Positions 25,700-63,921 of a DNA stretch of 64,000 bases are shown here, in pieces. Origin of the DNA: Odiellus spinosus (taxonomy: Eukaryota > Arthropoda > Arachnida > Opiliones > Phalangiidae); the NCBI GenBank assembly GCA_963920705.1, contig OY987228.1, forward strand, positions 2,558,159 to 2,622,158, written 5' to 3'. Positions within the stretch are counted from its first letter, which is position 1. Each line of letters starts with the position of its first letter. A program made the position numbers and the translations under genes. The notes under the pieces were generated by a model. It worked only from the letters and a program-made list of their open reading frames with translations. It was not told the origin of the DNA and made no database searches.

Positions 25700-25825
25700 C
25701 TATAAAAATATATGGACAACAATAAAATCACGAATGGCGTACAGATTCATATTAGGGATAAGCAATAGGTATAGCTTTCATTGAAAAGTTAGACCTATTT
25801 AGAATCGGGGGCGCAACTGCATGTA

Positions 25826-25970: not shown

Positions 25971-27470
25971 CAATGGATTATCCATTTCTCCCATACTTGT
26001 AGCTACAACAGGGTCAGTATTAACAACAAGGGGTTGTGGATCAACTACTGGGTTTAAAACAACCGGTATCTCTTCTATAAGGGGATTAGAAAATCTGACA
26101 ATTGACCATAAATAATAACGAGGAATTTCCTCATTCTCACTTCCACTAGAAGGCTCCTCGATAACTATAGAGCTACCCATTTGATCATTTATATTTCTGT
26201 CATTCAAAGGCTCATCTGAATCGGTTATATTTGAAGTATCTAAACTGGTATCTATTGGGTTAAAATATGGGACGAGGAAGATTCTATTTGTTCTACGGAT
26301 TCCGGTACTGTATTATCCTGTACTACAATAACTTCTAATAATTCTGAATCATCGGCGATATCAGTGGGAGCAATTCTGGCTGGAGGAAACATCAAAAAAG
26401 TTTGATCTGGGTCGATGGGAGGTTCTTCTACAACTGGTTCTATTACAACGGTTGGGTTAATCTGAGGTTCTAAGACTTCCTGCGTGTCTAGGGATGCCGT
26501 ACACATATATAATTTTAATTGATTAATGTGCCAGGTGCCAGCAAGGGCTCCAGTACTCATCTCCATAATTACATAACTCACTGGGGAAATCTTTTCAACA
26601 ATACGAAAAGGACTTCCCAACGAGGTGCAAACTTAGCAGAAAACTTGGCAGCAGCATTTGACAATCTATGACCCAACTTCCATACTAACCGACCCACTTC
26701 AAGTTCTCCGCTGGTATAATTTCTATCATAAAAATACTTCTGTTTCATGCTAGCTAGTTTATTTATTTCCTGTGCGAAATCTATAGCTATTTAGGTCCTT
26801 TTCCATACTCTAAAACAGTTTCTACATTAATTGGGACTCCCTAAAAACTTCTTTCATCCCAGGGTAACGTGGGTTCATAACCTTGGTGGACATAAAAAAG
26901 GGAATAACCAGTAGATGCGTGTACTGTACTATTAATAGCTAACTGAATCAATGGTAAATGTTCATCCCATATTATATGTAAATTTCCTGTATATGATTTC
27001 ACCCATAACTCGTGCAGTCATATTGGCCTGGGGATGATAAGGAGAAGTAAATTTTACTTTAATCTTCAACTTATGACATAATTGTTTCCAAAGGTTAGAT
27101 ATAAATTGGGTCCCATTGTCTGATAAAATGGCAGCCATAGTGCCATGCCTAGAAATATATTGGAGCAACACTTTACACAATATTGGAGCTGTAATGCTTC
27201 TGACGGGAAAAACTTCAACATATTTCGTAAAATAATCGACCATTACTACCAGGAATCGATTCTGATTTTTAGACCCATAATATCTATTCCCACTAAATCT
27301 CCAGGGTGTATTTTATACGAGGGGATCATAAGACCTGGACGCTTTGTATTTCTGCTCTTGCATCGTGGACAAACTTCGCATTCCTTAACATATTTCTTTA
27401 CCAGGATGTACAATTGAGGATGATAATAACGAGCCCTAATTTTGGCATAGCTAGCGGTTCTACCTCTATG

Positions 27471-27605
27471 ACCTTGTAATGGGGACCCTTTTTTTATCTT
27501 TAATGAAAGACCAAAAGCTTACCTAGGTTCATGAACGGCATGCTGTTAAATGGGACTTTATCATAATTTGAACCCTTGAGGAAACCTATGGAGGGCGCCA
27601 CTGTT
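27471..27605. repeat. Dispersed repeat, inverted partner at 34212-34345
   Basis: About 130 bp (words GAAAGACCAAAAGCTTACCT and AATGGGGAC) recur in reverse orientation at 34212-34345 with high similarity. It abuts the truncated end of gypsy-3. Confidence 0.85.
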
Positions 27606-35169: not shown

Positions 35170-35424
35170 TGTTATGATTTTAAAAAAAAAAAATATTTTT
35201 ATTGCTTGGCTAATATATTTGGGTTAGAATATAACTGATTATAATTACACTAATGATTTAAATTTAAACTGGATGACTATCATAACTCAACTGATTAAAA
35301 CTTTCTCTAAACTAGCAGACGATACCTCTGTTATGCATATGTAGGTGATGACGTCATTTGTGACTACCGCCACCTATCTGATTTTTAATGGCAAAGCTCA
35401 TGGGTCATAATTTGAAATCCTACA
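35170..35424 (-). repeat. copia-2 3' LTR
   Basis: 255 bp bounded by TG...CA. It lacks a 35-bp stretch present in the other LTR (around 48686-48720). The adjacent purine tract reads AAAGAGGGGGAGAAT on the minus strand (35425-35439). Confidence 0.9.
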
Positions 35425-35464
35425 ATTCTCCCCCTCTTTGACATTCTGTAATAATCGTAACAGA

Positions 35465-36389
35465 TCAAGTTAATGTTAACATTTTTCTACAATTAATAAA
35501 GCTTTGCTTATTTAAGGCTTTCGTTAATACATCCGCAGCATTTTCTTTTGAGCGTACAAATTTTAAATTAAATAGATTTTGTTCGAATTTGTCCTTTAAA
35601 AAATGGTACCTTATATCTATGTGCTTTGAGCGATGTTTCTCTATAGAATTTTTCGCGAAACAAATAGCTGATTCATTATCACATAAAACGATTGGTTTTT
35701 CTAATTGCGTATTAAAGTTACTATTCAATTCTTCTATAATTGGTAGTAACCACAAAAGTTCTTTGACTGCCTCGGTTAGTGCCATGTATTCAGCCTCCAT
35801 TGTTGACAGGGAAACTGATTTCTGTTTACATGACCTCCACGAAAAAGGTGATGCGCCGAAATAACACACGTAGCCGCAAGTTGATTTTCGCGTGTCTTTG
35901 TCCGCTGCCCAATCACTATCCGAGTAAATGATTAATTTCGCGTTTAAATCCTTCGTGTAGTGTAGCCCGTAATCCGCCGTCGTAATCACGTATCGCGCTA
36001 ATTGAATTGTTGCCAATGAGTATATCCGGGATTTGAATTGAACTGTGAGAGGGTAATTACGGCGAAAAGGATATCTGGACGTGTTCTTTGCGCTAAGTAT
36101 AATAATGAACCGATGACAGCTTGATACGGGTATTTCTTCATTTTTTCTTGTTCCTGAGGTTCAGTTGGGCAATCGGCCCTCGTAAGTTGGTTAGTAGGAA
36201 TCAGTGGTAAACTGACTGGCTCTACGCAATTGATCTGATATTTCTTAGCCATTTCCTTTACGTATTTTTCTTGGTGTAATTTGATACCTTCTGAATTTAT
36301 GTCCAATTCGACTCCAAGAATTTTCTTTAATGGTCCCATATTCTTTATTTCGTAAATACTGGATATCTTCTTAAAAACTGATTTTAGTT
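35465..36389 (-). pseudogene. copia-2 pol, 3' segment (RT end, RNase H)
   Basis: Two overlapping frames (36408-35998 and 36016-35465) hold the end of RT (EIKNMGPLKKILGVELDI, YQAVIGSLLYLAQRTRPD) and copia RNase H (YSDSDWAADKDTRKSTCGY, SLSTMEAEYMALTEAVKEL, CDNESAICFAKN, RSKHIDIRYHFLKDK). A frameshift lies near 36000-36015. The segment continues from 44578 across the gypsy-1 insertion. Confidence 0.9.
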
Positions 36390-36897
36390 TGTAACAGTCT
36401 GACCCCACACCCCCCTTTTTTTTTTTTTTTCACTCTTCTCGATCGTCTGCTCTCAAAAAAACTTTGCATATATTTTTTATTATTTATATTGTCAAATTTT
36501 CTTATGTCCGGTCAAGGTCAGGACAGACAGAGTTTTTACGCGGTATTAGTTTTTTAGCGGGGGGATAAAACCAGCCCCTCGCCCGACAAAAGGAGAGAAC
36601 TCTCTCATCATTCAGTCGGGCAACTTCGTATTTTTTGTTTTATCCGCAAAAGTAATTCCTGTCGCGAGTACTTTTATAGAACGCGTTGGAAACTACTGAC
36701 TGTCAATCAATGGATAATTTGGTAATAAATCCTTTTCTTATTTAATAATCGAACTCTTGTCTTTATTTATTGTTTTCCGGTGAATTTTAATTCTTCGGCA
36801 CGTATCGAACCCCTATTTTAGTTTTCATTTTCTTTTCTAATTGTTAGCGGACAATTTATTGGCCTGTATTATTAGCTTAACTACTTAGTCCGTTACA
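36390..36897 (+). repeat. gypsy-1 5' LTR
   Basis: 508 bp, TG...CA, differing from the 3' LTR only by a poly-T length change and a handful of substitutions. About ten bases after it comes TGGCGAGCCAACCAGG, a possible primer-binding site; the tRNA is not identified. Confidence 0.9.
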
Positions 36898-36993
36898 TAA
36901 GAAGAGTGGCGAGCCAACCAGGATACGTGCACGGAATTAATTAAGACAAAAATTTCGATTTTTAAAATTTTCCATTGTTTATTTACGCGCGAA

Positions 36994-38145
36994 ATGTCTC
37001 AAACGTCTGGGAGTTCAGCGGGTTCGGGCGGTCCGTCCCGTCAGATAAAGTCTAGTCCAGGCCGAGGAGTCGGCCGAGGTAGAGGCCAGGCTACGATAGG
37101 TAGACCGACCTTTCTACAGTCTATAGCCTCACAACCAGTAGTTCCACCACCAGTGCAAACTGCGGTTGGACCATCAGTTCCGACTGTCACTATCTCACCC
37201 CCGGTAGCCTCTAGCTCGACTTTAACCCCGGAAGCGCTAACTTTTTTAGCTAATCAAATTAATGTAGGAGGTAGTAGACCTATACCCCCGCCGAAAAATA
37301 AACCTAAACCCCCAAGAGATTTATATTTTTATGGGAAAGAAGGAGAAAGCGCGCCAGAGTTTTTGAGAGCGTTACAAGAATTTGTCAATTACAATGATAA
37401 GACTGACCCTGAGATAGTTTTACTTTTGCCTCTCGTCTTAAGGGGTCGTGCATTAACGTGGTTTCGTGACCTAGGGACCCCGTTAGTTCCTTTAACTTGG
37501 GCTACTTTTCAAGGATTATTTCGCGATTATTTTTTCTCTGCAAGAGCAGAAGAAAATTTGAGATTATCTATCGCGCAATACCGTCAAACTCGCGGTGTGT
37601 CTTTTGCCACCTTTATAGCGAACGTGACTGGTATGAATCAAAATTTACGTAGGCCTTATTCAGAAACCGAGTTAATTAGTATTTTACGTAGAACAGTATA
37701 TCCTGAGATCGCGATACATGTAATTGACCCTAATATTACGAGTTTGAGGGAATTCTCGGAAAAATGTACAATTTCCGAAGAAATTTTACGAATGACCCCT
37801 TCAAGCTCGCTGTACGCCCTCAAGGCCGAGGCCGTGAAAAATGAGTCAGGCGAAAGAGAAAGAGGCAGGAGAGAGAGCTCTCCTGTACGTTCAGTGGGCC
37901 AAAACCAACACGTTAAAAAATCAGCTGGTAAACAAGCAGGGCGAGCACCCAAACAATCAGTTTCTCCCGCTAGTAAACCGGAAGTTTCCCGTCGAGGATT
38001 AGAATCGGTACAATGTTTTAAATGTGGGAATTTTGGGCACTACGCACCTGATTGCCCTGATTTAGCTCAAGCAAAGGTTAAGCCTCAGGAAAACAAGAAA
38101 GCGGGAAGACCCGAAGGGGGCCGTCCTCCCGCTCAAAACGAATAA
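36994..38145 (+). CDS. gag: gypsy-1 Gag
   Basis: 383 codons. N-terminus rich in Ser/Gly with an RG motif (GRGVGRGRGQ, about residues 25-34), then a capsid-like retrotransposon Gag domain (about 105-270; FYGKEGESAPEFLRALQEF, LTWFRDLGTP), a charged linker, and a CCHC zinc knuckle C341-x2-C344-x4-H349-x4-C354 (CFKCGNFGHYAPDC). It forms the particle and packages RNA. The pol frame lies at -1 relative to gag, and the frames overlap by about 65 nt (38082-38145), which implies a -1 ribosomal frameshift; no canonical heptamer is obvious. First ATG after the leader is used. Confidence 0.95.
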   Translation: MSQTSGSSAGSGGPSRQIKSSPGRGVGRGRGQATIGRPTFLQSIASQPVVPPPVQTAVGPSVPTVTISPPVASSSTLTPEALTFLANQINVGGSRPIPPPKNKPKPPRDLYFYGKEGESAPEFLRALQEFVNYNDKTDPEIVLLLPLVLRGRALTWFRDLGTPLVPLTWATFQGLFRDYFFSARAEENLRLSIAQYRQTRGVSFATFIANVTGMNQNLRRPYSETELISILRRTVYPEIAIHVIDPNITSLREFSEKCTISEEILRMTPSSSLYALKAEAVKNESGERERGRRESSPVRSVGQNQHVKKSAGKQAGRAPKQSVSPASKPEVSRRGLESVQCFKCGNFGHYAPDCPDLAQAKVKPQENKKAGRPEGGRPPAQNE

Positions 38146-40823
38146 AACCCTCACTAGATTTAGGATCTATGGTTGTGCGAAAGGGAAAGAAAGATCAACC
38201 TGTAGCCATAGATGCAATTTTTTCGTACGGTAAATTTTTAGTTAGACTAGATTCTGGTGCCGACGCTTGTTTCATTTCGATGGAACAGTGGCGCGCCTTA
38301 AACCAAAGATTAGACGAAACCCCCACAATACCCTTAGAGGAAGAAGAAACTAAATGAATTATATTAGGTGATGGTAGATATACTTTTACAAAAGGAGAAG
38401 CCAATATTTCGTTTCTTCTCGGTTCATTGAAAATTGAACAAGATTTTCATATTGTCCCTTCTCTTCCAAATGATTTTATTCTGGGAAAAGACTTTCTTTA
38501 CAAGTATAGGGCGGTCTTAGATTTTGGCAAGAAGACCTGTCAAATAGAGGGACATACCTTCCAATTTTCGACAAATAAACCGGGATTTAAGGAACCAACC
38601 CCTTCTCTAATAGAAGATATAGATAAGGCTGTCGATTCTCCGAATCTTGACCAAAGACAAAAACAGGAATTGAAGGAGTTATTACTCCGATTTCCTAAAT
38701 TGTTCGCGGAAAAAGCGGGTCGAACGAACCTTGTCTATCACGAAATTCATACCACCACCGATGTTCCAGTAAGTCAGCGAGCTTACCAAGTAAGCGACGC
38801 TAAGAAACGAATCATTGAGGAACATATCCACGAGATGATACGCGATGGTATCATAAAACCATCTGTCAGTCCTTACGCCTCTCCTGTCGTTTTAGTACAG
38901 CAGAAGGGCGACAAGATTCGCTTCTGCGTGGACTACAGAAAATTGAACCAAATAACCGTGAAGGATCCATATCCTATACCACGAATTGACGATCTTTTAG
39001 GAAAAATGGGAACACCTAAATTTATAACTGCACTAGACCTCAAAAGCGGTTATTGGCAAATCGAGTTACATCCACAATCTAAACCGAAGACTGCATTCAT
39101 CACGCACGCTGGAAAATTTGAATTTGAAGTTCTTCCGTTCGGAGTCGTCAACGGGCCCTCAAGTTTTGAGAGACTTGTTGATGAAGTATTCCGAGACGGT
39201 CAACATTTCTCAGTTTCTGTCTATCTCGATGACATCATCATACCATCAGAGACTTGGGAGGACCATTTAAAGGCTTTGGAGTATGCACTAACGAAACTAT
39301 CCGACGCTGGTCTTACCTTACAGACGAAGAAATGTCGTTTCGCCCAGAACGAAGCGGTCGTCCTCGGACACGTCATAAATGAACGTGGAATTCATATTGA
39401 TCCCGCCAAAACGGAAGCAATAGTCAAATTTCCAACACCAAAGAACGTGAAGGATATTCAAAGATTTCTCGGCTTAGCTGGATGGCACCGAAAATTTATT
39501 CCGCAATTTTCAAAGATAGCAGAACCTCTTAATCTCCTGAAAAGGAAGGATATTCCATTTCACTGGGGAGAAAAACAACAAGTGGCCTTCGATCAACTCA
39601 AAAATGCCATTTGCACTGCTCCACCATTGGCAGCATATAACTCATCTCTCCCGTGTATTCTGACAACCGATGCCAGTTACGCAGGATTGGGCGCTTTCCT
39701 GTCCCAAATCCAAGGAGATGTCGAAGTTCCAATTGCCTATGCTAGCAAGATCATACGAGGTGCTCAACTAAATTATACCACAACAGAGAAAGAATGCCTC
39801 GCGATTTATTGGGGAGTACAAAAGTTCCGTCCTTATCTAGAAAACAAACCATTCACAGTGATCACGGACCATAAGGCATTGCAGTGGTTGTTTAATTTGA
39901 AGGAACCGAATTCACGTCTTGTTCGTTGGGCAATGTACTTACAGACTTTTGATTTCAAGATTATACATAAAAAGGGAGTGGAGAATCGGGTTGCCGACGC
40001 TTTGTCAAGAGCTCCGGTATCTCTCTTAACACTCTCCTTGAGTACATCAAGTTCCAGCGGATCGACAAGTAATTCTGGTGGCAGTACTTCTACTGAATCT
40101 CCTTCTAGCGGTTCTTCCAGTGAAGACCGTCTACATCTTCCAGGAGATCATGCAATGTACCTCGCCTTTACTCTAGATGAGATCAGAACAGCACAAAAGG
40201 AAGATCCAACTATAAAGGAAATCATTACCTTGTTATCAGGTCCAAACCCCAAGAGACATAAATTCTTCGAAATGAAAAACAACGTAGTCTACCGCAGATC
40301 AATCAGACGATTACCGCCAAAGATATATTTACCTTTGCGTCTGCGGAGGGAAGTCCTCCGTCTATCCCACGATCATCCTTTATCCGGACATCGAGGACGG
40401 GATAGAACATTGGACAAGGTGAAAGTTCGATACTGGTGGCCATCGCTCAAAGAAGATGTGATAGATTATGTACGTGGTTGTACTTTGTGTCAAATGCATA
40501 AAGCCCGAAACAGTAAAATACCAGGATTAATGCAGCCAACAGCTTTATCTGAACCATTTGATCTACTAGGAGTAGATATCATGGGACCTTTGCCAGCGAG
40601 TAAACGTCACTACAAGTATTTACTCGTCTTCACGGACTATTCAACAAAATTTGTTGAACTACATCCTCTACGGAACATTACCGCGAAGAACTGCGCAAAG
40701 AAGCTTATTTCATTAATAATACGGTATGGCTGTCCTAAGACCATTGTCAGCGACAATGGGACGCAATTTGTTTCTCAGCTATGGAAGGACTTATTGAAGA
40801 TGTTCAAAATTAGACCGAGATAA
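38146..40823 (+). pseudogene. pol: gypsy-1 Pol: protease, RT, RNase H, integrase core (broken)
   Basis: Protease with catalytic RLDSGADACF near 38245-38280; an in-frame TGA at 38355-38357 interrupts it and the frame continues to 40823. RT has FVDYRKLN-type and LDLKSGYWQIEL blocks and the YLDD active site at 39222-39233 (VYLDDIIIPS). RNase H starts at TTDASYAGLGAF. Integrase has the HHCC region (HPLSGHRGRD ... CTLCQMHK) and two catalytic Asp blocks (LLGVDIMGPLP, IVSDNGTQF). One base appears to be lost near 40812, ending the frame at KIRPR; the rest of integrase follows in another frame at 40853. Length and order are normal for gypsy; as it stands it cannot make full Pol. Confidence 0.9.
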
Positions 40824-42301
40824 TCACTCCTTACCATCCTCAAGCAAATCTAGTGGAAAGAGTCAATCGTGTCATTGGAGAACTCATCTCGATGTTCGTA
40901 GGAGAAGATCATAGGAATTGGGATGAAAATATTCCGTTCATTCAGTTCGTAATCAACTCAACACCTCACTCTACAACTGGAAGATCTCCATTTTTTCTCA
41001 ATATGGGAAGAGAACCCAGAATACCGTGGGATTTAGATATAGGGATTCCACTCAAAGACTTCGCAGAAAGATCCACTACTACGGATTCGTTGGCTAAACA
41101 ACTCGCTCTTTCGAGAAAAATGGCCGAAAAAGCCAAGGCTCATCAGAAGCGATATTACGATCAAAGAAGAGCGGGAATTGAATTTCCCGTCGGCGCTTTG
41201 GTCTGGAAAGCAACTCATCCGATTTCACAAGCTGCTGCCAACATATCCGCGAAATTATGTCCCAAGTGGGAAGGACCGTATAAAATTTCGCGAAAAATCG
41301 ATCGATTGACTTATCAACTACAAAATCCGGAGACTGGAATCATTATTGGAAATGAAAATATCGCTCATTTGAAACTATATTGGTCTAATAGAGGAGTCTG
41401 TACAGGACCTAATAGAAGCGGAGAAGAACGTATATCATCTGGAGTCCAGACTGATACGTCTCGATCAACTTCATCTTCATCCGATGAATCTATAGTCAGA
41501 CCCCAACGAAGAGTTCGTCATGCTATTAGTACCAGTAATGAAGAAACATCAGCGACCGAGTTACAATCCAGCCCTCGAATTTCAACTTCAAATCAAGAGA
41601 CTCAAACAGATCACCCCTCATCTGCGGAAGGCGAAGTATCCGAACCAGAACCAGTAATACAACCAGATCTGCCAGATCATGGAATTCAGACTGACCTATC
41701 AGATCAATCTAATAATCTACCGGTTCAGGATGACGAAGTCCTCGAGCAGGATGAAGGAGTCGTCCTGTCTGATATACCTAACTTATCTCCAGACGAAGTG
41801 GAGCCAAGACCAATTGTTTCCGATTATCAGGAAGAATCTGATCCGGAAATATTTGAGCTTTTTTCTGATCCTCCTAGAGAATTCCGAATTAACAGAATTC
41901 CTCCATACCAATTACCGGTGAACTACAATGCGAGAGATGATTCTCTCTCGTCTTCTTCAGAAATTACTTCCGATGATGTTACTGAAACATCAGAAGTAGA
42001 TATTAGAGAAGAAGCCCCGTTACCTGGGACTCCAACAACCCCCGGGGAGTTCAAAAACCCATTTAGAAAAGGATGGAGACGAGAAGTAGTGATTAGGAAA
42101 AATCCTCAACCTGATGGTCCGAGCATGGATATTTATTATTATCCTCCTCCGACATTTAAACAGGAGCGAATCCGCTCAATTCCTCATCTTTCGAGATATT
42201 TACATGCTAATAAAATTTCGAACGTAAATTGGCATGAATTTTGCTTCGAGCGACGGTCTATCTCACGAGAACCGTGGGAGACGACTCGACCTGCGAATTA
42301 A
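40824..42301 (+). pseudogene. gypsy-1 integrase C-terminus with MBD-like domain
   Basis: Continuation of integrase after the frameshift: the HPQANLVERVNR block carries the third catalytic residue (Glu), then INSTPHSTTGRSPFFLNMGR, a C-terminal basic barrel-like part (WKATHPISQAAANISAKLCP, WEGPYKISRKI), a 200-residue acidic Ser/Glu-rich linker (about 41400-42030), and an MBD-like domain at 42059-42203. The short tail ends PWETTRPAN. The open frame from 40853 is intact for 482 codons. The domain sits where chromoviruses keep a chromodomain. Confidence 0.9.
42059..42203 (+). CDS. MBD-like domain of gypsy-1 (part of integrase ORF)
   Basis: About 48 residues: KGWRREVVIRKNPQPDG, then MDIYYYPPP, IRSIPHLSRYL. 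Compared with MeCP2, the equivalents of the DNA/methyl-CpG contacts R111 (IRK), D121 and Y123 (DIY) and R133 (IRS) are all present, as is the G-W start and the YL end of the fold. Known MBDs bind symmetrically methylated CpG; binding here is inferred. Confidence 0.75.
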
Positions 42302-42387
42302 ATTATTTGCTTTATTCTAGGGGCCGATGGGCACTTTCTGCCTTCGGGCGTCTCGTCCAGGGAATTCTCCTACCCACTACAATAGTA

Positions 42388-44007
42388 ATGTCAACTCCGT
42401 TCCCTCTAATTTCTACTGGAGCCTTAATCCGAATGGGATTCAAGGAGATCGATGCATTATGGGAATGGGAAGTCCTGGCTTTCAAATATCGATGGGAGAA
42501 TTTTCCACGACCGCTGCTGGTGGGGAGCTCACCGCCAGTCTCTCTCTCTCGACTGGATAATTCCCATCAATTCTTCATGGAACATGCGCTGGTCATTCAG
42601 GATGACCAGTCCCTTCTGCTAATGGACCTGCCATTACTCCGAAAAATGAAAGCGATGGTATGCCCATGTCTTAAATGCGCGGGTCTACTCTACGCTCCGG
42701 GAGTGGATAGATCGCTCACAGGACCGCCTCCCGGATTTGTCCAAGAATGGGTCGGGATCCGACACCAGGGGACTCAAATGTCCACGATTCCTATGTCCAA
42801 GAGAATCCAAGTCAAAGACACTCAAACTGACGAAATAATGGAAGAAGTTTTAATCTTGCAACCAGAAAGAAACGAATTGAAGGACTTATTAACTCCTCCA
42901 ATAACCCCTTCTCCTAGTGAAATGAACTTAGAAGGTCATGAAGCTACAAGAGAAGCTACGGCAAACCTGAACTCTCGCGGTTTCGGTCCTGTTCACTACC
43001 CGTCATCTACGACATCATTTTCTGGTATAATCAGAGGAGCAAATCAGAATGACTGGTCTTCTGGTGCTTGCGGGTATACATCAAGAAGTTATCCGTCTTC
43101 TGGTACTTGCGGGTACACTCCTAGAAGTGATCCGTCTTCCGACAATATATTCCGTTCAAGTACTCTTGGAAGAATGAATGAACCCAATTGGAAGTATGGG
43201 GCGTGCGGGACTGACTCTGGTGGTCATCCGTCTTCATCCTTCTTCACCATAGAAAATAGGTGGGGAGATAGGCCGGCTCCCACCAGGTCCTATTCGGCTC
43301 AACGCTTCCAAGATAGACCGATACATCAACCTCGTCCTTGGGGAAGTTCGTCGACTTGTGCTCCTCGACCACCCACTAATTGTCATCCACAACCAGGCGT
43401 GTGGTTTCCTATGAAACAACCATCGTCATTTACGAAGGCGGCTGACGATTCCTTTAGAATTCCGGAACACTTCTCTTACGATGAGACATTACCAGCGGCA
43501 GAAACAGCGAATCCTACTATTAGGACCCCTAACTCATCGAACACTGATTTACCTCCAAAGGGTAGAGGACGAGGGCGTGGGAGAATTCCTCCCAGTAGCG
43601 CTGTTGTTCAGCAAATAAATGAAAACGCAGTGCAGGCCCCGTCGATGGACAACGTTCCTGTTCCCGCTGTTCAACCGAGACATTTCAGTCCTTCGATGAG
43701 ACGATCTCCGACCTTACGAGGGAGAGATACAAGAGATGAACATTCATCCCACTTCGCCACAGCACCATCGTCCAGAAGTACTTCCGGGAAATCGAGTCGA
43801 GATGCGGAACCATCAACCACAAAATCAAGTACCGACATACGAATAAACCCTTGTAGGAGATGCTTAGTTCATATCCACCATGAACGGGATTGTCACCTGA
43901 AACGCCCTAAACCTTCACGAGCGAAGAAAGAAAGAAAAGCTTATAAAAAGTGGTTGAAAAAGCAAGGCCATCAAGAAAAGCAAACGTCATCTGAAGAATC
44001 CGAATAG
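42388..44007 (+). CDS. gypsy-1 third ORF with CCHC zinc knuckle, not env
   Basis: The frame is open from 42241; the first sensible ATG after the pol stop is 42388 (MSTPFPLISTG), giving 540 codons. N-terminal third is globular-looking (LIRMGFKEIDALWEWEVLAF, then a CPCLKCAG pair); the middle is Ser/Pro/Gly-rich and contains two to three repeats of a CGYTSRSYPSS type; next an RG-rich KGRGRGRGRIPP; the C-terminus has CRRCLVHIHHERDC (C-x2-C-x4-H-x4-C, a retroviral-type knuckle) followed by a Lys/Arg-rich tail. No signal peptide or membrane segment, so it is not an envelope protein. RNA- or DNA-binding is inferred. Unknown family. Confidence 0.75.
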   Translation: MSTPFPLISTGALIRMGFKEIDALWEWEVLAFKYRWENFPRPLLVGSSPPVSLSRLDNSHQFFMEHALVIQDDQSLLLMDLPLLRKMKAMVCPCLKCAGLLYAPGVDRSLTGPPPGFVQEWVGIRHQGTQMSTIPMSKRIQVKDTQTDEIMEEVLILQPERNELKDLLTPPITPSPSEMNLEGHEATREATANLNSRGFGPVHYPSSTTSFSGIIRGANQNDWSSGACGYTSRSYPSSGTCGYTPRSDPSSDNIFRSSTLGRMNEPNWKYGACGTDSGGHPSSSFFTIENRWGDRPAPTRSYSAQRFQDRPIHQPRPWGSSSTCAPRPPTNCHPQPGVWFPMKQPSSFTKAADDSFRIPEHFSYDETLPAAETANPTIRTPNSSNTDLPPKGRGRGRGRIPPSSAVVQQINENAVQAPSMDNVPVPAVQPRHFSPSMRRSPTLRGRDTRDEHSSHFATAPSSRSTSGKSSRDAEPSTTKSSTDIRINPCRRCLVHIHHERDCHLKRPKPSRAKKERKAYKKWLKKQGHQEKQTSSEESE

Positions 44008-44051
44008 ACAGGTTTTTTTTTTTTTTTTGAGGAGACGACCCGAATCTTTTT

Positions 44052-44062
44052 GTGGGGGAGGA
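44052..44062 (+). other. gypsy-1 polypurine tract
   Basis: GTGGGGGAGGA immediately before the TG of the 3' LTR; primes plus-strand DNA synthesis. Confidence 0.75.
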
Positions 44063-44577
44063 TGTAACAGTCTGACCCCACACCCCTTTTTTTTTTTTTT
44101 TTTTTTTTTTTCACTCTTCTCGATCGTCTGCTCTCAAAAAAACTTTGCATATATTTTTATTATTTATATTGTCAAATTTTCTTATGTCCGGTCAAGGTCA
44201 GGACAGACAGAGTTTTTACGCGGTATTAGTTTTTTAGCGGGGGGGATAAAACCAGCCCCTCGCCCGACAAAAGGAGAGAACTCTCTCATCATTCAGTCGG
44301 GCAACTTCGTATTTTTTGTTTTATCCGCAAAAGTAATTCCTGTCGCGAGTACTTTTATAGAACGCGTTGGAAACTACTGACTGTCAATCAATGGATAATT
44401 TGGTAATAAATCCTTTTCTTATTTAATAATCGAACTGTTGTCTTTATTTATTGTTTTCCGGTGAATTTTAATTCTTCGGCACGTATCGAACCCCTATTTT
44501 AGTTTTCATTTTCTTTTCTAATTTTAGCGGACAATTTATTGGCCTGTATTATTAGCTTAACTACTTAGTCTGTTACA
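44063..44577 (+). repeat. gypsy-1 3' LTR
   Basis: 515 bp matching the 5' LTR; ends GTTACA before the AGTT duplication. Confidence 0.95.
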
Positions 44578-47131
44578 AGTTTTTTCTCGTTTCGCGCTAA
44601 CACTATTAAATCGTCCACGTATACCAGGATGATTGTTTTTCTCGGACGATAATACACGCAATTTGTTCAAATTAATTTGGTGTATCCTAGGTTTTTGAAA
44701 GTCTTATCTAATTCATTAAACCAGTTTCTCCCGCTTTGGGGTAGTCCGTATAGCGATTTCTTTAGTTTTAAACAGTGCGTCGATGGGATGTGCGAAGAGA
44801 AACCTGGTATCGGTTTCATATAAACTGTATTGTCCAAATCTCCATAAAGATACGCGTTTTTAACATCTAGGTGACAATGTAACCATCCTAATGTTACTAC
44901 AAAGATAGCGATGAATAAACGAACCAGAGAAAAGTTTACTACTGGTGAGAAAACTTCGTCGTAATCGATCCCGGGTACTTGATTAAACCCTTGAGCAACC
45001 AGTCTTGCCCTATAACGTATGATCTGATTCTCGTTATTCATTTTGATGGTGTAAACCCAACGACATCCGACTATTTTCTTAGAAGTTGGTTTTCTTACTT
45101 TTTCCATTACTTTTCTCTCGGATAGAGTTCGTATTTCGTCATTCATCGCTTCTTGCCAGTATTGTTTTTCTGGTGATTTTATGGCTTCTTCATAAGTCCT
45201 TGGTATAATAATTTCGGTATTATGAACTTCCACGTGTTCTTCCTCTGATTCTAATTCGAGCTGTTCAGCCTCTTCTGGTTCGTTTGTGGTAAGTTCTGCT
45301 TTCGCCAATTTCTTTGAGAAACTAAAAAGTTCGATGTCATGATTGAGGTTTTTCTTCCGGAAATGTTCTTCAAGTTTCTTCTTTGATCGTTTACGTTTCC
45401 CCTTTGGATTGCGATAATAAACGTCGATTTCGCCCGCGCTTTCGCCCTTCTGCCGCGTAACTATTTCCTTTGACCAACCCGCTGGTAAACCAGATTTAAT
45501 GATTAGTGTTTTACCGGGTTGTTTCTTCGCCTCGTTGATTTCCCTTTCGGGGTTGATTTCTTGGGGTTCTTCACTCTGAATGGAACTTTCATCGTCCGTT
45601 TTGTGTATGTCTCCCTTCTGCTGTATGGTAGTTTCTTCGTCTGAATCGTCTTCAGTAGCGGGCCAAAGTGTGATGCTACTATTTTGTTTTTCCACTCCGA
45701 ATTTGTGTTCGTCGAAGATGACGTGTTGGGATTGTGTGACTCGTGATTCTTCCGGAAACCAGATTCTGTATCCCTTTGTTCCGATCGCGTAACCGACTAA
45801 AATTCCTCGCTTCGCTCGTGGCTGTAATTTGTGTCTTCGTTGCAGTTTATGAATGTGTACGAATGAGACACAACCAATCCTCTTCAGATGTCGAGCGCTT
45901 GGTTTATTTCCAGTCCAATGTTCTAGAGGAACTTTGTTTCCCAACTGAGAATGTTTTACTCGGTTCTTAAGGTATGCCGCGGTCATTACTAATTCGGCCC
46001 ATAAAGATATTGGTAATTTTGATTCTTCTAGATACGTTCGTACCATATCGACGAGAGTTCTGTTGATTCTTTCGGCAACTCCGTTCATTGCTGGAGAATA
46101 GACGTTAGTTCTTTCATGTTTGATTCCTGATTGGCGACAGATATCTTCAAATTTACGTGAGCAGTATTCCATACCATTGTCAGTTCGTATTGTTTTAATC
46201 CTTCGGCCAGTTTCATTTTCCACTTGCTTCTTGTACATTTGAAAATATTTAATGACTTCGTCTTTGGTTGCCATAACGTAAATTCTGATATATCGGCTGT
46301 AATCGTCCGTAAATGATACGTAATAACGTGCTCCCCCTATCGCAGTGATGGGAGCGGGACCCCATACGTCTGAATGAACCAGTTCGAGAATATTCTTACT
46401 GCGTATACTTCCTAGTTGTTTATGCGAATGAGCCGTGCTTTTACTGATTTTGCACGGATTACACGTGTCCAAATGTCCTCTTAAATTTTCAAGACCTAGT
46501 AGAAATTCATTTCGAGCCATGTATTTGAGATCCGCTTCGTTGATGTGTCCTAGACGACGGTGCCACATCTCAATCTGTTGTTCTTCACTTACGTGTGAAG
46601 TTGGTTTGATTTTCTTTGGTTCCTCCTTTCTGGTGTCTTCGTCTTCTGATTCATCCTCGGGCTTGAATACTTCTGCTTCAAACGTGTAAAAGTTATTTTT
46701 CAACTTCGCTTCTAATAAGACCCATTTGTGTCGTGGTGGAGGAAGATAGACGGTTAATTGTTGATTCTCAAATACACCTCTGTGGCCGGTGATATCCATT
46801 AATCTGGTTGAAATCAAATTCTTTCCCATGTCAGGTGCGTGAATAACTCCCGTTAGACAAATTTCCACCTCTTTCCCACGGGTATTTAGTCGTATCCAGA
46901 TATTACCTCTGCCGATAACTTTTGATTTTCCTTCGCCAAGGATTATATTTGATTTCGATGCCGTATATGTGTGAAACCATTCTCTTTTATTGCATACGTG
47001 ATGTGTTGCTCCTGAATCTATTATCCACTCGTTATCTGCCATATTAGTATAACAAGTTGTCGCCAAAAAATTGCTTCGGGTCTTATTTTTCTCTTCCCGT
47101 TTAAATTTTCTAGGGGCTCGACAGTCCTGCT
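44578..47131 (-). pseudogene. pol: copia-2 Pol: protease, integrase, MBD-like domain, RT start
   Basis: Open from about 47131 to 44667 on the minus strand. Protease WIIDSGATHHVC; integrase zinc motif (MWHRRLGHINEAD ... CNPCKISKST), catalytic blocks HSDVWGPAP and IRTDNGMEY plus the Glu region NVYSPAMNGVAERINRT; an acidic spacer; an MBD-like domain (45361-45495); RT from YEEAIKSPEKQYWQEAMNDE through WVYTIK and LDVKNAYLYGDL. A single TGA at 44664-44666 precedes VYYRPRKTIILVYVDDL. The RT then continues beyond gypsy-1 at 36389. Upstream it joins Gag across the MITE at 47132-47769. Confidence 0.9.
45361..45495 (-). CDS. MBD-like domain of copia-2 (between integrase and RT)
   Basis: Reads GLPAGWSKEIVTRQKGESAG, then EIDVYYRNPKGKRKRS and a KLEEHF end: the closest match here to vertebrate MBDs, with the L-P-x-G-W start, R-x-K-G-x-S-A-G, DVYY, N-P-x-G-K and R-S all in register with MeCP2. 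Equivalents of R111, D121, Y123 and R133 are present. It lies at the integrase C-terminus within the polyprotein. Confidence 0.8.
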
Positions 47132-47700
47132 GGGACAAATTGAAGAATAGGTCCCGGTAGCCAAAATTAAAAATAAAATACTTTTTCTAAAAGAGAAAAA
47201 TGCGAGAAAAATTATGGTGTAAAAATTATTTGGGGCCGACAATTATTAACGAAGATATGGACGTTTCAATTTCCCCGTGTTGCGCCATCGTGGTGCAAGG
47301 GAGGAAACGGCGGTAGACAGAGGGATACGGCTAGGAGAAAGGGGAGGGGGGTTTGACGGTGAAGGTTGGTGGTCGAAGCTTACTTTAAAGGGTAGGTGAC
47401 TTGAAATTTGAAATTAGAAAATGTTTTTTGTTTTTTTTCCAAAAAAAAATATTTTTAGGTTAGGCTAGGTTAGGTTAGGTTAGGTTTGGTTAGGTTATTC
47501 CAAAAATTTGTCTCCTTTCCTTTAAAATAATCCTTCGTTATTTTTACGAACCTTGGCGGTATCCCTCTAATCTACCGCCGTTTCCTCCCTTGAACCGCGA
47601 TGGCGCAAAACGGGAAAATGGCAAATTTGAAACGTACATATCTTTGTTGATAATTGTCGGCCCCAAATAATTTTGACACCATAATTATTCTCGCATTTTT

Positions 47701-47742
<42 letters not shown>

Positions 47743-47769
47743 TACCGGGACCTATTCTTCAAAACTCCC
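47132..47769. mobile_element. Long-TIR MITE inserted in copia-2 gag zinc knuckle
   Basis: About 638 bp. Ends are inverted (TTGAAGAATAGGTCCCGGTA and complement) and the inverted similarity runs roughly 200 bp inward, including GGAAACGGCGGTAGA. Flanks GTCCTGCTG and GTCTGCTG look like an 8-9-bp target duplication, fitting Mutator- or hAT-like mobilisation. It has A-rich and T-rich tracts (A37 near 47707) and a TTAGG array in the centre. It cuts the CCHC knuckle of copia-2 Gag after its third ligand. Confidence 0.8.
47455..47496. repeat. Interstitial (TTAGG)n array
   Basis: Eight consecutive 5-bp units: TTAGG six times, with one CTAGG and one TTTGG variant, in the loop of the long-TIR MITE. TTAGG is the ancestral arthropod telomere repeat. 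Confidence 0.85.
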
Positions 47770-48528
47770 GTCTGCTGCTCTATGACCTCTTTTTCCACAA
47801 TTATAACAATCACCCGTAAATGATTTAGCTTGCCTCTCTTTACTTAGTTCCACCGCTTTCTTATTCTCTGATTTACGTTCAAAACGTTTCGATTGCGTTG
47901 CTAATGCGTTGATTGAATCTGGTTGTTTCTCTCTCTCGACTTGCCGATTATACTCCGCTAATAATGTCTTCTTAACTAAGTCTGGTTTAAATTCTGCGTC
48001 ACTCATCTGATACATATGTTGCACCAATGCTTGATAACTTTCAGGTAGAGATCCTATTAATTGAAAAGATATGTGTCTCTCTGGAACTATTTCTCCGGCG
48101 TTACGTAGTTGATTGCAGACTTGTGATATTCTTCCAAAGAAACCGCTCATTGATTCGTTTGACTGATACGTGATTGAATAAAATTGCTTGTGTAAATCAG
48201 CTACTCTGGCGCGTGAAGAAGGTTCATATGTTTCTCGAAGATGTTCCCATAATTCGGTTGGAGTATTTAAATTTTCTGTGATGTTACGAATATCGTCACC
48301 CAAACTCATGGCTATGATTGCAAAAGCTCTTTGTTCTCTTGCCTCAAACTTTGCTAATACTTCAGGAGTTGACTTATCTGGATCTGGTGCCAATTCTTCA
48401 CTAGTCACGATTTTCCATAATGAACGCTCCCGCAAAAGTTGCTGCATAATAAATTTCCAGTCCTGATAATTTGTGCCATCGAGTTTAGCGACATGTCCGA
48501 GCGTGAATAAAGACGTGCCTTCTGCCAT
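47770..48528 (-). pseudogene. gag: copia-2 Gag (C-terminus cut by MITE)
   Basis: Starts MAEGTSLFTLGHVAKLDGTN, the usual copia Gag opening that leads to NYQDWKFIMQQLL; then the helical UBN2-type Gag domain (LWEHLRETYEPSS, LHKQFYSITY, LIGSLPESYQALVQ) and a CCHC knuckle beginning CYNCGKRGHRAAD, whose last Cys lies on the far side of the MITE (DCRAPRKF near 47120). The frame of Gag and Pol agrees once the MITE is disregarded, as in copia single polyproteins. Confidence 0.9.
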
Positions 48529-48578: not shown

Positions 48579-48580
48579 CA

Positions 48581-48876
48581 TGTTATGATTTTAAAATAAT
48601 AAGGTTTTTATTTTTATTGCTTGGTTAATTTATTTGGGTTAGAATATAACTGATTATAATTACACTAATGATTTAAATTTAAACTTTCATTGAGGGAGAG
48701 AAGGTAGCCCATGATCCTTACTGGATGACTATCATAACTCAACTGATTAAAACTTTCTCTAAACTAGCAGACGATACCTCTGTTATGCATATGTAGGTGA
48801 TGACGTCATTTGTGACTACCGCCACCTATTTGATTTTTAATGGCAAAGCTCATGGGTCATAATTTGAAATCCTACA
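48581..48876 (-). repeat. copia-2 5' LTR
   Basis: 296 bp, TG...CA, followed by ATTTT (48877-48881), the same 5 bp that precedes the other LTR. Confidence 0.95.
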
Positions 48877-58487: not shown

Positions 58488-59612
58488 CTATCGGATTATT
58501 TCCCAAGGGGGAGCATATATAAGTTGTCTTTTAAAATTAAACATGTCTCGAGTTAGTGTAGGAAAATAGGGGTAGTTGATTAGATAAGCTGCTGCTTCTA
58601 CGCTTGACCGCAATTTCTTATGATGCGGAGCAGGAGCATGATAGTAGATGTCTTTATCTACTCCTCCAGGCTGAACCGTCTGACGAAAAACCACTTCTCG
58701 AATAAATCCGTGCTCAAAAGGTTGGATGGTTTTTTCCGTTAACAATGGATATTGTCGAAGTATTGCTGAATGATTGAGTAGTTGCGTCTCGTCATCTGGC
58801 ACCTCTTCATCTGAAGTATCTAGAATAGTGTCTTGAGAAGAATCTATAAGGTTTGAGGTGTCTAGACCTGGATTAGGAGTTGAGTGTCGTATAGGACTGG
58901 TTAACGTATTCTCTTCAGTGTCTAGCTCGGAAGATTCATTTGCTACTGGTTCAGAGGGAGTTTGTGCTCCATCTGACTCATCAAGAATACTCTCAGGCAT
59001 TATTTCTCCAGTATTATGGAAAATCTTTAACTGGCTTATATGGCATTGGGAGCGTCTCTTAGTATTAATCTCTTCTAATTCGTAGACAAGATTAGAAATA
59101 TGTCTTATGATGGTATATGGCCCAATCCATTTAGGTAACAGTTTAGCAGAAATATTTCGTGCAGCATTTGACAACTGATGATTCTCTTTCCATACCATCA
59201 TTCCTGGTTGGAAATAGTCTTCATCTCTACGTAAATCATAATATTTACGCTGTCGAGCTTGATTTACTTCAATCGTTCGAGAAACTGCTAAAATCTCTCT
59301 TCCTAGAACCTCAATTCGTTCCTGATTCTCTAAGAGAAAATCAGCGCGATCAACTTCAGTAATAATGTCTTCATAAATTTCCCAAGGAGTATTGGGTTCT
59401 CGGCCATGATTCAGATAGAATGGAGTCCTACCCGTAGTTACGTGAGGACTACTATTAAGGGCAAATTGTAAAGTGGATAAGCTAGAATCCCAGGATTGGT
59501 GGTCATTTCTGACGTGTATAGGCAATAAGGCCTTAATAGAACGGTTTGTCCTCTCTACAGGGTTAGCTTGAGGATGGTAAGGAGAAGTATATCCACACTG
59601 GATATTAAACAA
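58488..59612 (-). pseudogene. gypsy-2 integrase C-terminus with MBD-like domain
   Basis: 374-codon frame continuing integrase: SPYHPQANPVERTNRS holds the catalytic Glu, then NSSPHVTTGRTPFYLNHGRE, the basic C-terminal part (LLPKWIGPYTIIRHI), an acidic linker and an MBD-like domain at 58579-58728 (GFIREVVFRQ, KDIYYHAP, KKLRS, AYL). The Trp of the G-W start is Phe; the R111, D121, Y123 and R133 equivalents are present. Ends YAPPWEIIR, like the PWETTR end of gypsy-1. Confidence 0.85.
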
Positions 59613-59622
59613 AGTGCAAGTC

Positions 59623-61848
59623 TCATTCTGATAAACATGTCTCTGATAGGATTTTCTTAGGTGATCCCCATCGTAAGATTAGGTCTTTTAAAGTAGCACT
59701 AACTGTGCTAGCTGTTATGTCTGGTATGGCTATCAATTCTACAAACCTGGTAAAAACATCCAGGTATACTAATAGATATTTATTCCCTTTATGACTAATG
59801 GGTAAAGGTCCCATCAAATCCACACTGACTAAATCCCAAGGGTTGTGTACCGTGGTGGATGTCATTAGGCCTGGTGTTTTCCGATTGCGACTCTTATATT
59901 GTTGGCAGGTCACACAGGTTGCTACATATTTAGCGACATCTGGTTTCAAAGTAGGCCAATAAAACCGAAACTTTACAGCTTCATATGTCTTATCTCTCCC
60001 TTTATGTCCAGCTAATAAATGGGTATGATAAAGTTGTAAGCAATTAGTTCGTAATGTCTGAGGTAGGAATAATTTCTTAGACTGATTTCCCCATGCCTTC
60101 CGGTACAGAGTATCACTTACTACCTCGTAAAGTTTTTGTAGGTTTGGCGAATTTGGTAGGAGGTTTTTTATATGTAGTGTCTCAGGGTCGGTATTTTGTT
60201 CTCTACGTATATCGTCTATAGAGAAGGTACCCATCACTAAAGGTGGTGGTGCTGGAAGAACGCTATTGTTTAGTAATACGGCCCCCAATGTAATAGGTGT
60301 AACTGCGTCCCTGGATAGATAATCTGCCACTACATTCTCAACTCCCTTTCTATATTGAATCTTAAAAGTAAAGGATTGCAAAAACATCACCCATCTAGCT
60401 ATACGTGCTGTCGGTTCTTTCTGGGAAAATAACCATTGTAAACTCTTATGGTCGGTAATCACTATGAACTCACGACCTTCAAGTAAATGTTTATATTTAT
60501 TCACCGCCCAAAATATCGCTAAGCATTCCTGCTCATAAGTAGAATAATTCTTCTCTGCTTTATTTAAAAGCCTAGACCCATATATTAAAGGATATTCTAT
60601 TGGTCCTTCTTTCTGAGAAATCATGGCTCCCAGGGCTATGCCACTGGCGTCTGTTGTTAAATAAATAGGTTTCTCTGGGTCATAGTGATATAGGGGGTTA
60701 GTAATAATTCCCAAAACAGAATCTTTTAGTGTCTGATAAGCATTGTCACATTCCGGTGTCCATTTCCATCTAACCTTTTTCCGTTTTAAAACATACAAGG
60801 GTGCAGCTATTTCGGCATAACGTGGAATAAATCGGTTATGCCACCCTGTAAAGCCTAAGAATCTTTGTAAAGATTTTTCATTATGAGGTCTTGGTAGAGA
60901 TTTTATTAGTTCTGTCTTTTCAGGATTTATGTGTATGCCTTCTTGATCTACTATATGTCCTAAAATTAGGGCTTTATTACGGGCAAAAAAACACTTTGAC
61001 GTATTTAGTGTTAAGCCTACTGACTGTAATTTCCTAAAAGCATATTCAAGGGCCCTAAGATGTTCGACCCAGGTTTTAGAGGCTACAATTATATCGTCTA
61101 AATAGATAGCGATATTAAACCCTGCTTTATCTCTAAAAATAGTATCCATAGCTTTTTGAAAAGTTGTCGGGGCATTACATAGGCCAAATGGCATTACGAG
61201 ATATTCAAATTTTCCAAAAGGGGAAACAAAAGCAGTTTTATTCTGACTGCTTGGATCCATCGGAACTTGAAAATATCCGGATTGTAAATCAAGGGTCGTA
61301 ATGAATTGTGGATTTTTAAGGTCAAATAGTATGCCTGCAATGTCTGGTAGTGGGTAAGGATCCTTTCTCGTTAATTTGTTTAAGGCTCGATAATCAATAC
61401 ACATTCGCCATCCACCTTCCTTCTTCGGGACTAGGCAGATGTTTGAAGACCAAGGACTATTAGATGGTTTAATAAGGCCTTCAGCTAGTAACTTATCAAT
61501 GTGTTCTTTAATTATAGCTCTTTGTGCTGGTGAAATCTTTCGAGGGTAGGCCTTACACGGATTTTCGTTCCCAGTGTCTATTAAATGAGAAGTTATATCC
61601 GTTCTACCTAACTGGCCTGAAAATAACGTAGAAAATTTCTCCATTAATAAACTAAGTTCTTGCTTCTGAATAGGTGTCGTGGCACTCTCTTCGACAGCCA
61701 ATCTAATGGTGTCGGATATATCAGAATTTTTTATTGGAGAAATAGGCTTAGGTGACGTGGTTAAGTTGAAAATGTTGTCTTCTAATTGTATGGTTCTATT
61801 TTTATAGTTTATAATTGCGTTATGTCTCAGATAGAAATCGTGTCCCAA
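59623..61848 (-). pseudogene. pol: gypsy-2 Pol: RT, RNase H, integrase core
   Basis: 741-codon frame. RT blocks MCIDYRALNKLTRKDPYPLP, LDLQSGYFQVPM and YLDD (AIYLDDIIVAS); RNase H from LTTDASGIALGAM to the DHKSLQWLF block; integrase zinc region (HTHLLAGHKGRD ... CVTCQQYKSRN) and the first catalytic Asp in SVDLMGPLP. The frame ends in SPKKILSETCLSE: bases are lost or changed just where the second catalytic Asp block (normally S-D-N-G) should be, and the rest of integrase continues in another frame at 59612. Probably inactive integrase. Confidence 0.9.
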
Positions 61849-62226
61849 GATTACTTCACAATAAAGGTTAGGAGCTAAAATAAACTCATGCTTGAACAGA
61901 TTATCATCTACTTTTGAAGGTTAGAGTATCTTTTCCTCGTGTAGGTAAAAATTGGCCATTTAGCATAAACGCACAATCGTCTACTAACTCCACTAACTCA
62001 TTTGGATCTTTAAGTTTATAGTAAGTGTCTAGCGACATAAAACTACCCTGAGCTCCATTATCTATCTGGGCATAAAGTATAAGTGAAGGCAGCTTAGAAT
62101 CAGGATAGGTAACTGGTAAAACAAAAGAAGGTTCATATCCTATTCTTGCACTGCCAATCCTACATTTCTTCCGTTTCTTAGGGGATTTAAATCGGCAAGG
62201 AAACCAACCCCTTCTACGGTCCTTGC
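61849..62226 (-). pseudogene. gypsy-2 protease region (broken)
   Basis: Frame reads ILYAQIDNGAQGSFMSLD: the catalytic triad position is D-N-G (62055-62063) where D-S-G or D-T-G is expected. An extra A at about 61911-61915 shifts the frame before it reaches the pol ORF (EVILGHDFYLR). So both a substitution and a frameshift mark it. Confidence 0.75.
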
Positions 62227-63921
62227 CTATACGTTTCCCTTCAAGTCAGGACAATTAGGCCTAATGTGTCCCTTTTTCTTACAATGATGACAGTTTAGGT
62301 TTGTATGAAAATTTCCCTTCCCTAATGTTATAGGTTTAGGGATAGTAGGAGTTGATGTCTTGGACCCACTTGAAACTGGTACCTGACTACTAGATTTATT
62401 AAATGTCTTGCTATAAGCTCTCATATCTTCCAACTTCCCAGCCTTTAGTTTTAACGAGGCTATGGTCGTACATTCATGTACTAAATGTTCGCCAATATCA
62501 GCCTTCATATTATTTAATAAATGATAAACTAATCTAGGCTCGGGAATGGGGACTCCTAAAGTCAGGTTAAGAGCTTGAATACGATTAATAAAAGCTACTG
62601 CGGTCTCACTAGGTCTTTGCCGGGAGCTTGTTATTTTAGCAGCTATCGCATGTTCCTGATCAGCTGATAAAAATGTGTCTCTTAGCTTTCTAGTAAGTAC
62701 AGGTAGGGAGGTTATGGCCTGACAATCTTCTGTACGCCACCATACTACAGCTTCACCCTTTAAACATTCAGGTATGATAGTTAATGTCTCGGCCTCGCTC
62801 AAAGAATGTTTCTTCTGAAATACCTCTAATTGGAATAAGAAATTAGTAACTTCGGTCATATCTCCCGAAAAAGAAAATGTAGGAGTAGGTAATTTCCTAG
62901 GTATTCTAGGCCTAGCTATCTGTCCTTGATGGTCTAATAGTTGTTGAGAAACTAGCTGCTGTTGAAGCGCTAATTGGGCCGCTAATTGTTGTTGCGCAGC
63001 TAGTAATTGTTGGCTAGCTAATTGTTGTTGATTAGCGCCTGTAAAATAAACTGACATATGCCCTAATAATTCCGTTAATAGATCATCTCTAGTAGTAGAC
63101 GTACCTCGTGGAGGTGAATGTATTCCCTGGGATAACCCATGAGAAGACGCTGAACTATTAGGGGAAGGTTGCCTAGCTTGCATTAACGTAGGACCTGCTG
63201 ATGGTTTAGCTTGCGCTATCGGAGAAGTCGAAGTTGTCCTTGGTAGGCCTTGAAAGGAAGCTGGCCTATTAGGTGTACTAGACTTATCAAATAAATTCTG
63301 TGGTGATAATGGCCTGTTATAATTATATCTAGGAGGAGATTGGGCTTGAGTTGGAGGGTTGAATGTTACCCTAGTATGTGTCCTAGAAGGGGATACCCTA
63401 TAATTTCTGATATATGGCTGTCTACTAGTAGGATTTATCAATATAGGTCTAGGTAACGAGTGACCCGTAGGCCTGGGCCTATTTATATCTGAATTTGCGG
63501 AATTGCCTACTTGTAGTACTTGGGTAGTATTAGGAGGAAATACCTGACCACTGGAAGGAATGGGATTTGTAAAAGGTGTCTGAGCTTGAAAAGAAACATC
63601 AAAGGCTGTGTCTAATAAAGAGTCAGCAGGATGAGGTAAAGGTGTCCTAGTAGGTGATATTCTTGACCAAGGGTCATTAAAAGCTAGACTAGTATTTGGA
63701 AAATTTTTGTTACTTCCCTCAATTTCCTGTGTTTCAGCTCGACGATCTTCTCTAGGCCTTTGTGTCTCCATGTTAAATTGTAGGTCATGTCTAGGAGGAT
63801 GTCTAGAAGCAGGGAGTCCTAAACGTAGGTGTGGCGGCGTGTCAAAAAATCCGGACTCTATCATAAAACGGGCTTCGCGTTCTGCGTTACTTTCCGGTAA
63901 TAACCTGTCTGAACGCGGCAA
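62227..63921 (-). CDS. gag: gypsy-2 Gag
   Basis: 564 codons, intact, longer than gypsy-1 Gag because of a 270-residue Pro/Ser/Arg-rich N-terminal region (MPRSDRLLPESNAEREARFM start) and a Gln-rich coiled stretch (about residues 285-330, repeats of QQLAAQ type). The retrotransposon Gag domain follows (LPTPTFSFSGDMTEVTNFLF, VVWWRTED) and a C-terminal CCHC knuckle CHHCKKKGHIRPNC. The protease frame starts directly downstream. The element's leader and 5' LTR lie beyond position 64000. Confidence 0.9.
   Translation of the reverse strand: MPRSDRLLPESNAEREARFMIESGFFDTPPHLRLGLPASRHPPRHDLQFNMETQRPREDRRAETQEIEGSNKNFPNTSLAFNDPWSRISPTRTPLPHPADSLLDTAFDVSFQAQTPFTNPIPSSGQVFPPNTTQVLQVGNSANSDINRPRPTGHSLPRPILINPTSRQPYIRNYRVSPSRTHTRVTFNPPTQAQSPPRYNYNRPLSPQNLFDKSSTPNRPASFQGLPRTTSTSPIAQAKPSAGPTLMQARQPSPNSSASSHGLSQGIHSPPRGTSTTRDDLLTELLGHMSVYFTGANQQQLASQQLLAAQQQLAAQLALQQQLVSQQLLDHQGQIARPRIPRKLPTPTFSFSGDMTEVTNFLFQLEVFQKKHSLSEAETLTIIPECLKGEAVVWWRTEDCQAITSLPVLTRKLRDTFLSADQEHAIAAKITSSRQRPSETAVAFINRIQALNLTLGVPIPEPRLVYHLLNNMKADIGEHLVHECTTIASLKLKAGKLEDMRAYSKTFNKSSSQVPVSSGSKTSTPTIPKPITLGKGNFHTNLNCHHCKKKGHIRPNCPDLKGNV

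Follow-up and report, generated by a model that had tools for sequence, protein, structure and literature searches.

What does a methyl-CpG-binding domain (MBD) do in a retrotransposon, and does this locus really hold one? A preliminary description of the window, i.e., the whole 64-kb stretch of DNA analysed here, placed such a domain between the integrase and the reverse transcriptase (RT) of a copia element, copia-2. To our knowledge, the integrase-linked tethers known so far read histones or bind proteins. A reader of DNA methylation beside integrase would instead couple insertion-site choice directly to the methylome of the host.

The MBD of copia-2 and its place in pol

A profile search of the copia-2 pol ORF had been proposed as a check on the domain, and a Pfam scan of the whole ORF returned a significant match to the MBD profile, PF01429 (E=7.3e-12, 45.2 bits; curated cut-off, 21 bits). 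When a 140-residue piece around the domain was submitted to Pfam, the match was again clear (E=6.9e-13). Pfam domains in the ORF run in the order Pol_BBD, gag_pre-integrs, rve, SH3_retrovirus (residues 409-480), MBD (549-613) and RVT_2 (676-820), i.e., the MBD is flanked by the SH3 domain of integrase and the RVT_2 reverse transcriptase. Among solved structures, the nearest by sequence was MBD2 (E=8e-10, 41.8 bits), and further matches were obtained to MeCP2 (1.3e-8), MBD3, MBD4, MBD1, plant MBD5/6 and BAZ2A. Of the 32 matches to solved structures with E no greater than 1, 31 were MBD or MBD/TAM proteins, the single match from outside the family being an unrelated protein at E=0.59. By its sequence, then, the copia-2 pol ORF carries a real MBD between integrase and RT, and the Pfam and MBD2 matches bear out the original claim. 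The span first assigned to the domain (45361-45495) covers its core but leaves out the last ~20 residues. Equivalents of R111, D121, Y123 and R133, which we take to be the MeCP2 numbers of the contact positions, had been reported for copia-2, and all four were indeed found in an alignment to MBD2 read by eye.

The preliminary description had also looked to structure prediction for the MBD fold, and here the outcome was mixed. In a Foldseek search with the low-confidence copia-2 model, the best 28 of the 50 matches listed were all MBD-family (probability 0.57-1.00). However, the structure models had mean pLDDT values of 54.5 and 64.3, i.e., low confidence, and the other fold comparisons were weak.

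Copia-2 is a single insertion on the minus strand, extending from 35170 to 48876; by eye, it is flanked by a 5-bp duplication of the target site (ATTTT). Its gag, its integrase followed by an RVT_2-type RT, its LTRs and its short target duplication are those of a Ty1/copia element. Since a second element, gypsy-A, sits inside copia-2, the ORF at 35465-36016 is the far end of copia-2; by eye, this ORF resembles copia RNase H, but Pfam returned nothing for it at E of 0.01 or below. A MITE-like element (47140-47763; ends read by eye) lies between gag and pol. The arms of its terminal inverted repeats (47182-47281 and 47615-47714) are 88% complementary, and it also carries a (TTAGG)n stretch and, at one end, an A/T tract; in our reading, it cuts gag/pol at the zinc knuckle.

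MBDs in copia and Ty3/gypsy elements of the window

Although copia-2 was confirmed, the initial account of one MBD-bearing copia proved incomplete, as four more LTR elements in the window carry the domain (Table 1). The segments in gypsy-A, gypsy-B and gypsy-C were first noticed at the ends of integrase ORFs in the ORF list and then confirmed by Pfam. A profile built from these three MBDs and that of copia-2, run over the six frames of the window, recovered its own four members and a segment of copia-1 (E=1.2e-5), while the next segment stood at 0.73. All five MBDs score above the PF01429 cut-off. Chance matches are ruled out by the Pfam E-values in five elements and by the gap to that next six-frame segment, and an artefact of assembly or of exons in a single copy is likewise ruled out, since the arrangement is common to five elements. 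The domain was present in 5/5 LTR elements of the window whose post-integrase region exists, a count made by tblastn with the copia-2 and gypsy-A, -B and -C proteins and thus confined to their relatives, BEL/Pao and other element types lying outside it.

Table 1. Positions of the MBDs and of the LTR elements that carry them.
Feature	Positions	Strand	Details
MBD of copia-2	45300..45494	-	Pol residues 549-613; Pfam PF01429
MBD of gypsy-A	42050..42268	+	Integrase C-terminus; PF01429 E=7.4e-11, 42.0 bits
MBD of gypsy-B	58521..58721	-	Integrase C-terminus; PF01429 E=2.2e-6, 27.6 bits
MBD of gypsy-C	25785..25982	-	PF01429 E=4.7e-9, 36.2 bits
MBD of copia-1	19757..19924	+	Between integrase and RT; PF01429 E=5e-7, 29.7 bits
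Copia-2 pol ORF	44667..47138	-	823 codons; contains only the first part of RVT_2; ORF list, Pfam
Copia-2 gag ORF	47752..48528	-	Retrotran_gag_2; ORF list, Pfam
Copia-2 5' LTR	48581..48876	-	Self-BLAST; ends read by eye
Copia-2 far part	35170..36389	-	Remaining RT; ORF 35465-36016; 3' LTR 35170-35424
Gypsy-A	36390..44577	+	Nested within copia-2; LTRs 36390-36897 and 44063-44577
Gypsy-B coding region	58491..63921	-	Gag, RT-RNaseH-integrase, MBD
Gypsy-C fragment	25737..27482	-	Integrase pieces in several frames, linker, MBD; tblastn
Copia-1, decayed	18766..20560	+	Integrase, MBD, RT; tblastn, frames

Copia and Ty3/gypsy elements of one genome therefore carry an MBD C-terminal of integrase. Gypsy-A and gypsy-B have an RVT_1-type RT and RNase H before integrase (Pfam), as Ty3/gypsy elements do. 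The order is integrase-MBD-RT in the copia elements and RT-RNaseH-integrase-MBD in the gypsy elements, so that the MBD follows integrase in both; in principle, the copia MBD could stay with RT after polyprotein cleavage. For copia-2, NCBIfam returned transposase models and nothing else, and for three gypsy ORFs it returned nothing; no part of the window reached the gathering score of an Rfam family.

Every copy is damaged: copia-2 shows several kinds of disruption, and each of gypsy-A and gypsy-B has a frame change in integrase. The LTRs of gypsy-A are identical at 502/506 ungapped positions, and those of copia-2 at 251/258 ungapped positions; the copia-2 alignment also contains one gap of length 37 and some other gap columns. 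Since LTR identity is this high, both elements inserted recently and both families were recently active. Gypsy-A is bounded by a 4-bp target duplication, AGTT (read by eye), and has, downstream of its MBD, a 588-codon open frame (42241-44007, plus strand), whose C-terminus is basic and for which Pfam returned nothing at E of 1 or below. For gypsy-B, the ORF list holds no ORF of at least 150 codons between 49581 and 58488, and a 5' LTR was not identified before the window ends at 64000.

Several other features were recorded in the window. Arrays of a 25-bp tandem repeat (14396-15255 and 15804-16226) are open in at least one frame and encode periodic peptides, a satellite-like array (31-bp / 93-bp) occupies 50979-51824, and many diverged repeats, mutually inverted and direct by self-BLAST, are clustered at 52288-56503. 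A 696-codon ORF (28486-30576, plus strand) matches the hAT C-terminal dimerisation domain at E=1.6e-8 (PF05699) and encodes a transposase of the hAT type or a related protein, and an 815-codon ORF (294-2741, minus strand) has weak N-terminal zinc-finger matches below the Pfam cut-offs.

Conservation of the MBD, its linker and its contact residues

Local alignment scores of the MBDs and of the linkers that join them to integrase were compared with those of 300 shuffles. Among the MBDs, z was 15.4 for gypsy-A/B, 17.3 for B/C, 10.7 for A/C and 8.0 for copia-1/2, and in each comparison 0/300 shuffles scored as high. The linkers gave z of -0.0 (A/B), 0.4 (C/B), 0.1 (C/A) and -0.1 (copia-1/2), their scores being equalled by 149, 100, 113 and 153 of 300 shuffles, respectively; for gypsy-C, the comparison took in just the final 70 residues of the linker. 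The MBD was thus kept while the adjoining acidic linker changed rapidly, beyond recognition. Since the domain is conserved between families and the linker is not, this points to selection on the MBD.

Conservation extends to the putative DNA contacts. In an alignment of all five MBDs (A1), the equivalents of R111 and D121 (R23 and D33 of copia-2) are invariant in 5/5 rows. The R133 equivalent is present in four of the five, copia-1 having K instead, and so is that of Y123 (read by eye), gypsy-C having H. A four-row alignment of gypsy-A, -B, -C and copia-2, without copia-1 (A2), has rows only 30-33% identical to the first. Among the columns that do not vary in it are R25, D36, R51 and S52 of gypsy-A, and we equate these with R111, D121, R133 and S134 of MeCP2.

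Possible functions of the MBD

The reading that we favour, by a modest degree, is that the MBD serves as a chromatin-reader tether. The complex of integrase and cDNA would dock on DNA through the MBD, preferably at methylated CpG, and the docking would bias where the element inserts, as chromodomains do in chromoviruses. Its observed basis is the domain itself, its position, its conservation, its contact residues and the recent insertion of elements that carry it. Copia and gypsy elements, which arrange RT and integrase in opposite orders, both place the MBD after integrase, and this position argues indirectly for a tether, as does the conservation of the MBD beside an unconserved linker. So does the chromodomain found in the corresponding post-integrase region of a distant gypsy element, L001, described below. 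Counting against a tether, the residues at Y123 in gypsy-C and R133 in copia-1 are substituted, the gypsy MBDs also resemble the TAM domains of BAZ2A/B, which are not known to be methyl-selective, every copy is broken, the structure models are of low confidence, the contigs searched gave no MBD-bearing relative from outside the window, and the window lacks overall CpG depletion.

The ratio of observed to expected CpG was 0.96 over the whole window, 1.11 in copia-2 with its nested insert, 1.05 in gypsy-A, 0.66 in gypsy-B (no TpG excess) and 0.71 in copia-1 (slight TpG excess, 1.16). Since CpG is not depleted across the window, strong local (germline) methylation is not evident. However, young copies say little about methylation, since CpG decay needs time. 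In most studied insects, methylation lies in gene bodies. If the tether reads 5mC, it may find its targets outside this nest of elements, gene bodies being one example.

The main rival, which we consider rather unlikely though still a serious contender, is that the MBD serves as a module for general DNA binding, one that gives integrase a firmer hold on DNA but does not read methylation, and perhaps, in copia-2, for nuclear import as well. The lack of overall CpG depletion would suit such a module, as would the charge of the MBD pieces, which is +7 in gypsy-A, +3 in gypsy-B and +6 in copia-2 beside linkers of -31, -19 and -10. Copia-2 also has a very basic run, KGKRKRSKKK, but this run is missing from the gypsy MBDs. 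Gypsy-A and gypsy-C match the TAM chains of BAZ2A/B first; however, gypsy-A keeps R, D and R-S where the aligned BAZ2A has K, E and K-Q. In one article, MBD/TAM is termed a generic DNA-binding domain, and most rotifer MBD versions are described as binding methylated and unmethylated DNA fragments alike (PMC8885841). Nevertheless, four residues invariant in A2 are equivalents of those that read mCpG, and they have remained so despite the low identity of its rows, which argues against indifference to methylation.

A separate question, whose answer is compatible with the functional readings, is whether a single retroelement MBD passed between the copia and gypsy lineages or the domain was captured twice from hosts. 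Comparisons of copia with gypsy MBDs beat their shuffles in six cases (z 3.7 to 8.8), with 0/300 shuffles as high in five and 1/300 in one, as any two MBDs may do. In single-sequence searches, by contrast, the first solved-structure chain was BAZ2A or BAZ2B for each of gypsy-A, -B and -C (not significant for B), and copia-2 is nearer MBD2 (41.8 bits) than the gypsy MBDs (15 to 29 bits). The A2 profile, copia-2 included, lists MBD2 first among solved structures, and the copia-1 MBD lists MBD4, weakly (0.014). For so short a domain, with pairwise matches only, two captures look more likely than one, and we regard a single origin as distinctly unlikely.

The MBD might alternatively be a protein-interaction or counter-silencing module that recruits host partners or shields methylated element DNA from host readers. 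Some MBD proteins act through partners, and one solved structure holds, by its title, the MBD of SETDB2 in complex with a protein partner. In plants, transposons are silenced through the methyl readers MBD5/6 (reviewed in PMC8616336). We think this quite improbable, since the DNA-contact residues are conserved and the post-integrase position in both superfamilies is better explained by a role in integration. Retroelements do pick up host sequence and all copies in the window are broken, but that the MBDs are functionless passengers captured from host genes is hardly credible, given a domain conserved beside an unconserved linker, across a gypsy pol divergence that reaches 45% identity (alignment A3), and present in recently inserted elements.

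Relatives and known systems

Among viral contigs, no relative was confirmed for the copia-2 MBD, copia-2 pol, gypsy-A pol, A2 or A3, which says little about animal genomes. A profile search of genome contigs with A3 found one distant gypsy element (L001, 37% identity in the best segment) at positions 1-6657 of contig JAJTHR010000327.1, from a MAG labelled Parachlamydia sp.; the contig is probably eukaryotic contamination. In this gypsy-type retroelement, which occupies a single long open frame, integrase is followed by a chromodomain (Pfam PF00385, E=2.3e-13), and the MBD profile finds nothing in the element below 0.1. The viral and genome contigs searched thus held no MBD-bearing relative outside the window. 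Conversely, neither gypsy-A pol2 nor gypsy-B pol2 nor the gypsy-C ORF matched PF00385 at E of 1 or below. Since they lack a chromodomain, these three elements are by definition not chromoviruses, though they are built alike.

The likeness to chromoviruses, among them MAGGY and Tf1, lies in the overall order, with a chromatin-reader domain C-terminal of integrase. They differ in that chromoviruses carry a chromodomain, whose ligand is a histone, whereas the elements of the window carry an MBD, whose expected ligand is DNA, and do so in copia as well. In Ty elements, the region between integrase and RT holds targeting motifs, and the extra segment of copia-2 and copia-1 likewise lies after integrase and before RT. 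In the yeast precedents, integrase binds Sir4 (Ty5) or AC40 (Ty1) through a short protein-binding motif, whereas the segment in copia-2 and copia-1 is a domain from a reader family already known. Precedents for tethering are given in PMC5738225 for Ty1, Ty5 and CRM, the last named as a chromodomain-bearing Ty3/gypsy element. Host MBD2/3, MeCP2, MBD4 and BAZ2A/B share PF01429 and, largely, the contact residues with the MBDs described here, which differ in lying within the polyprotein of a retroelement.

Surveys of DNA-methylation systems may already mention transposon proteins with MBD/TAM domains, and we therefore make no claim to be the first to note them. In the open-licence PMC literature, as distinct from subscription papers and Repbase reports, we found no LTR retrotransposon described as carrying an MBD. 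The retrotransposons of Symbiodinium and of the charophyte K. nitens that bear a DNA methyltransferase (DNMT) likewise took up DNA-methylation machinery, but theirs is a writer, carried by LINE, DIRS and DIRS-structured gypsy-like elements, according to PMC5890265, and the word MBD is absent from the main text of that article.

Our tentative proposal, which we hold to be plausible but somewhat short of probable, is that two LTR-retrotransposon superfamilies of one genome recruited methyl-CpG reading for integration targeting, perhaps in more than one event. If true, these elements would be DNA-methylation counterparts of chromoviruses, with the host methylome as their address. Should the host methylate its DNA like most studied insects, the preferred sites would be gene bodies, and should its repeats be methylated, they would be transposon-rich DNA. 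Methylation could then attract transposons as well as silence them.
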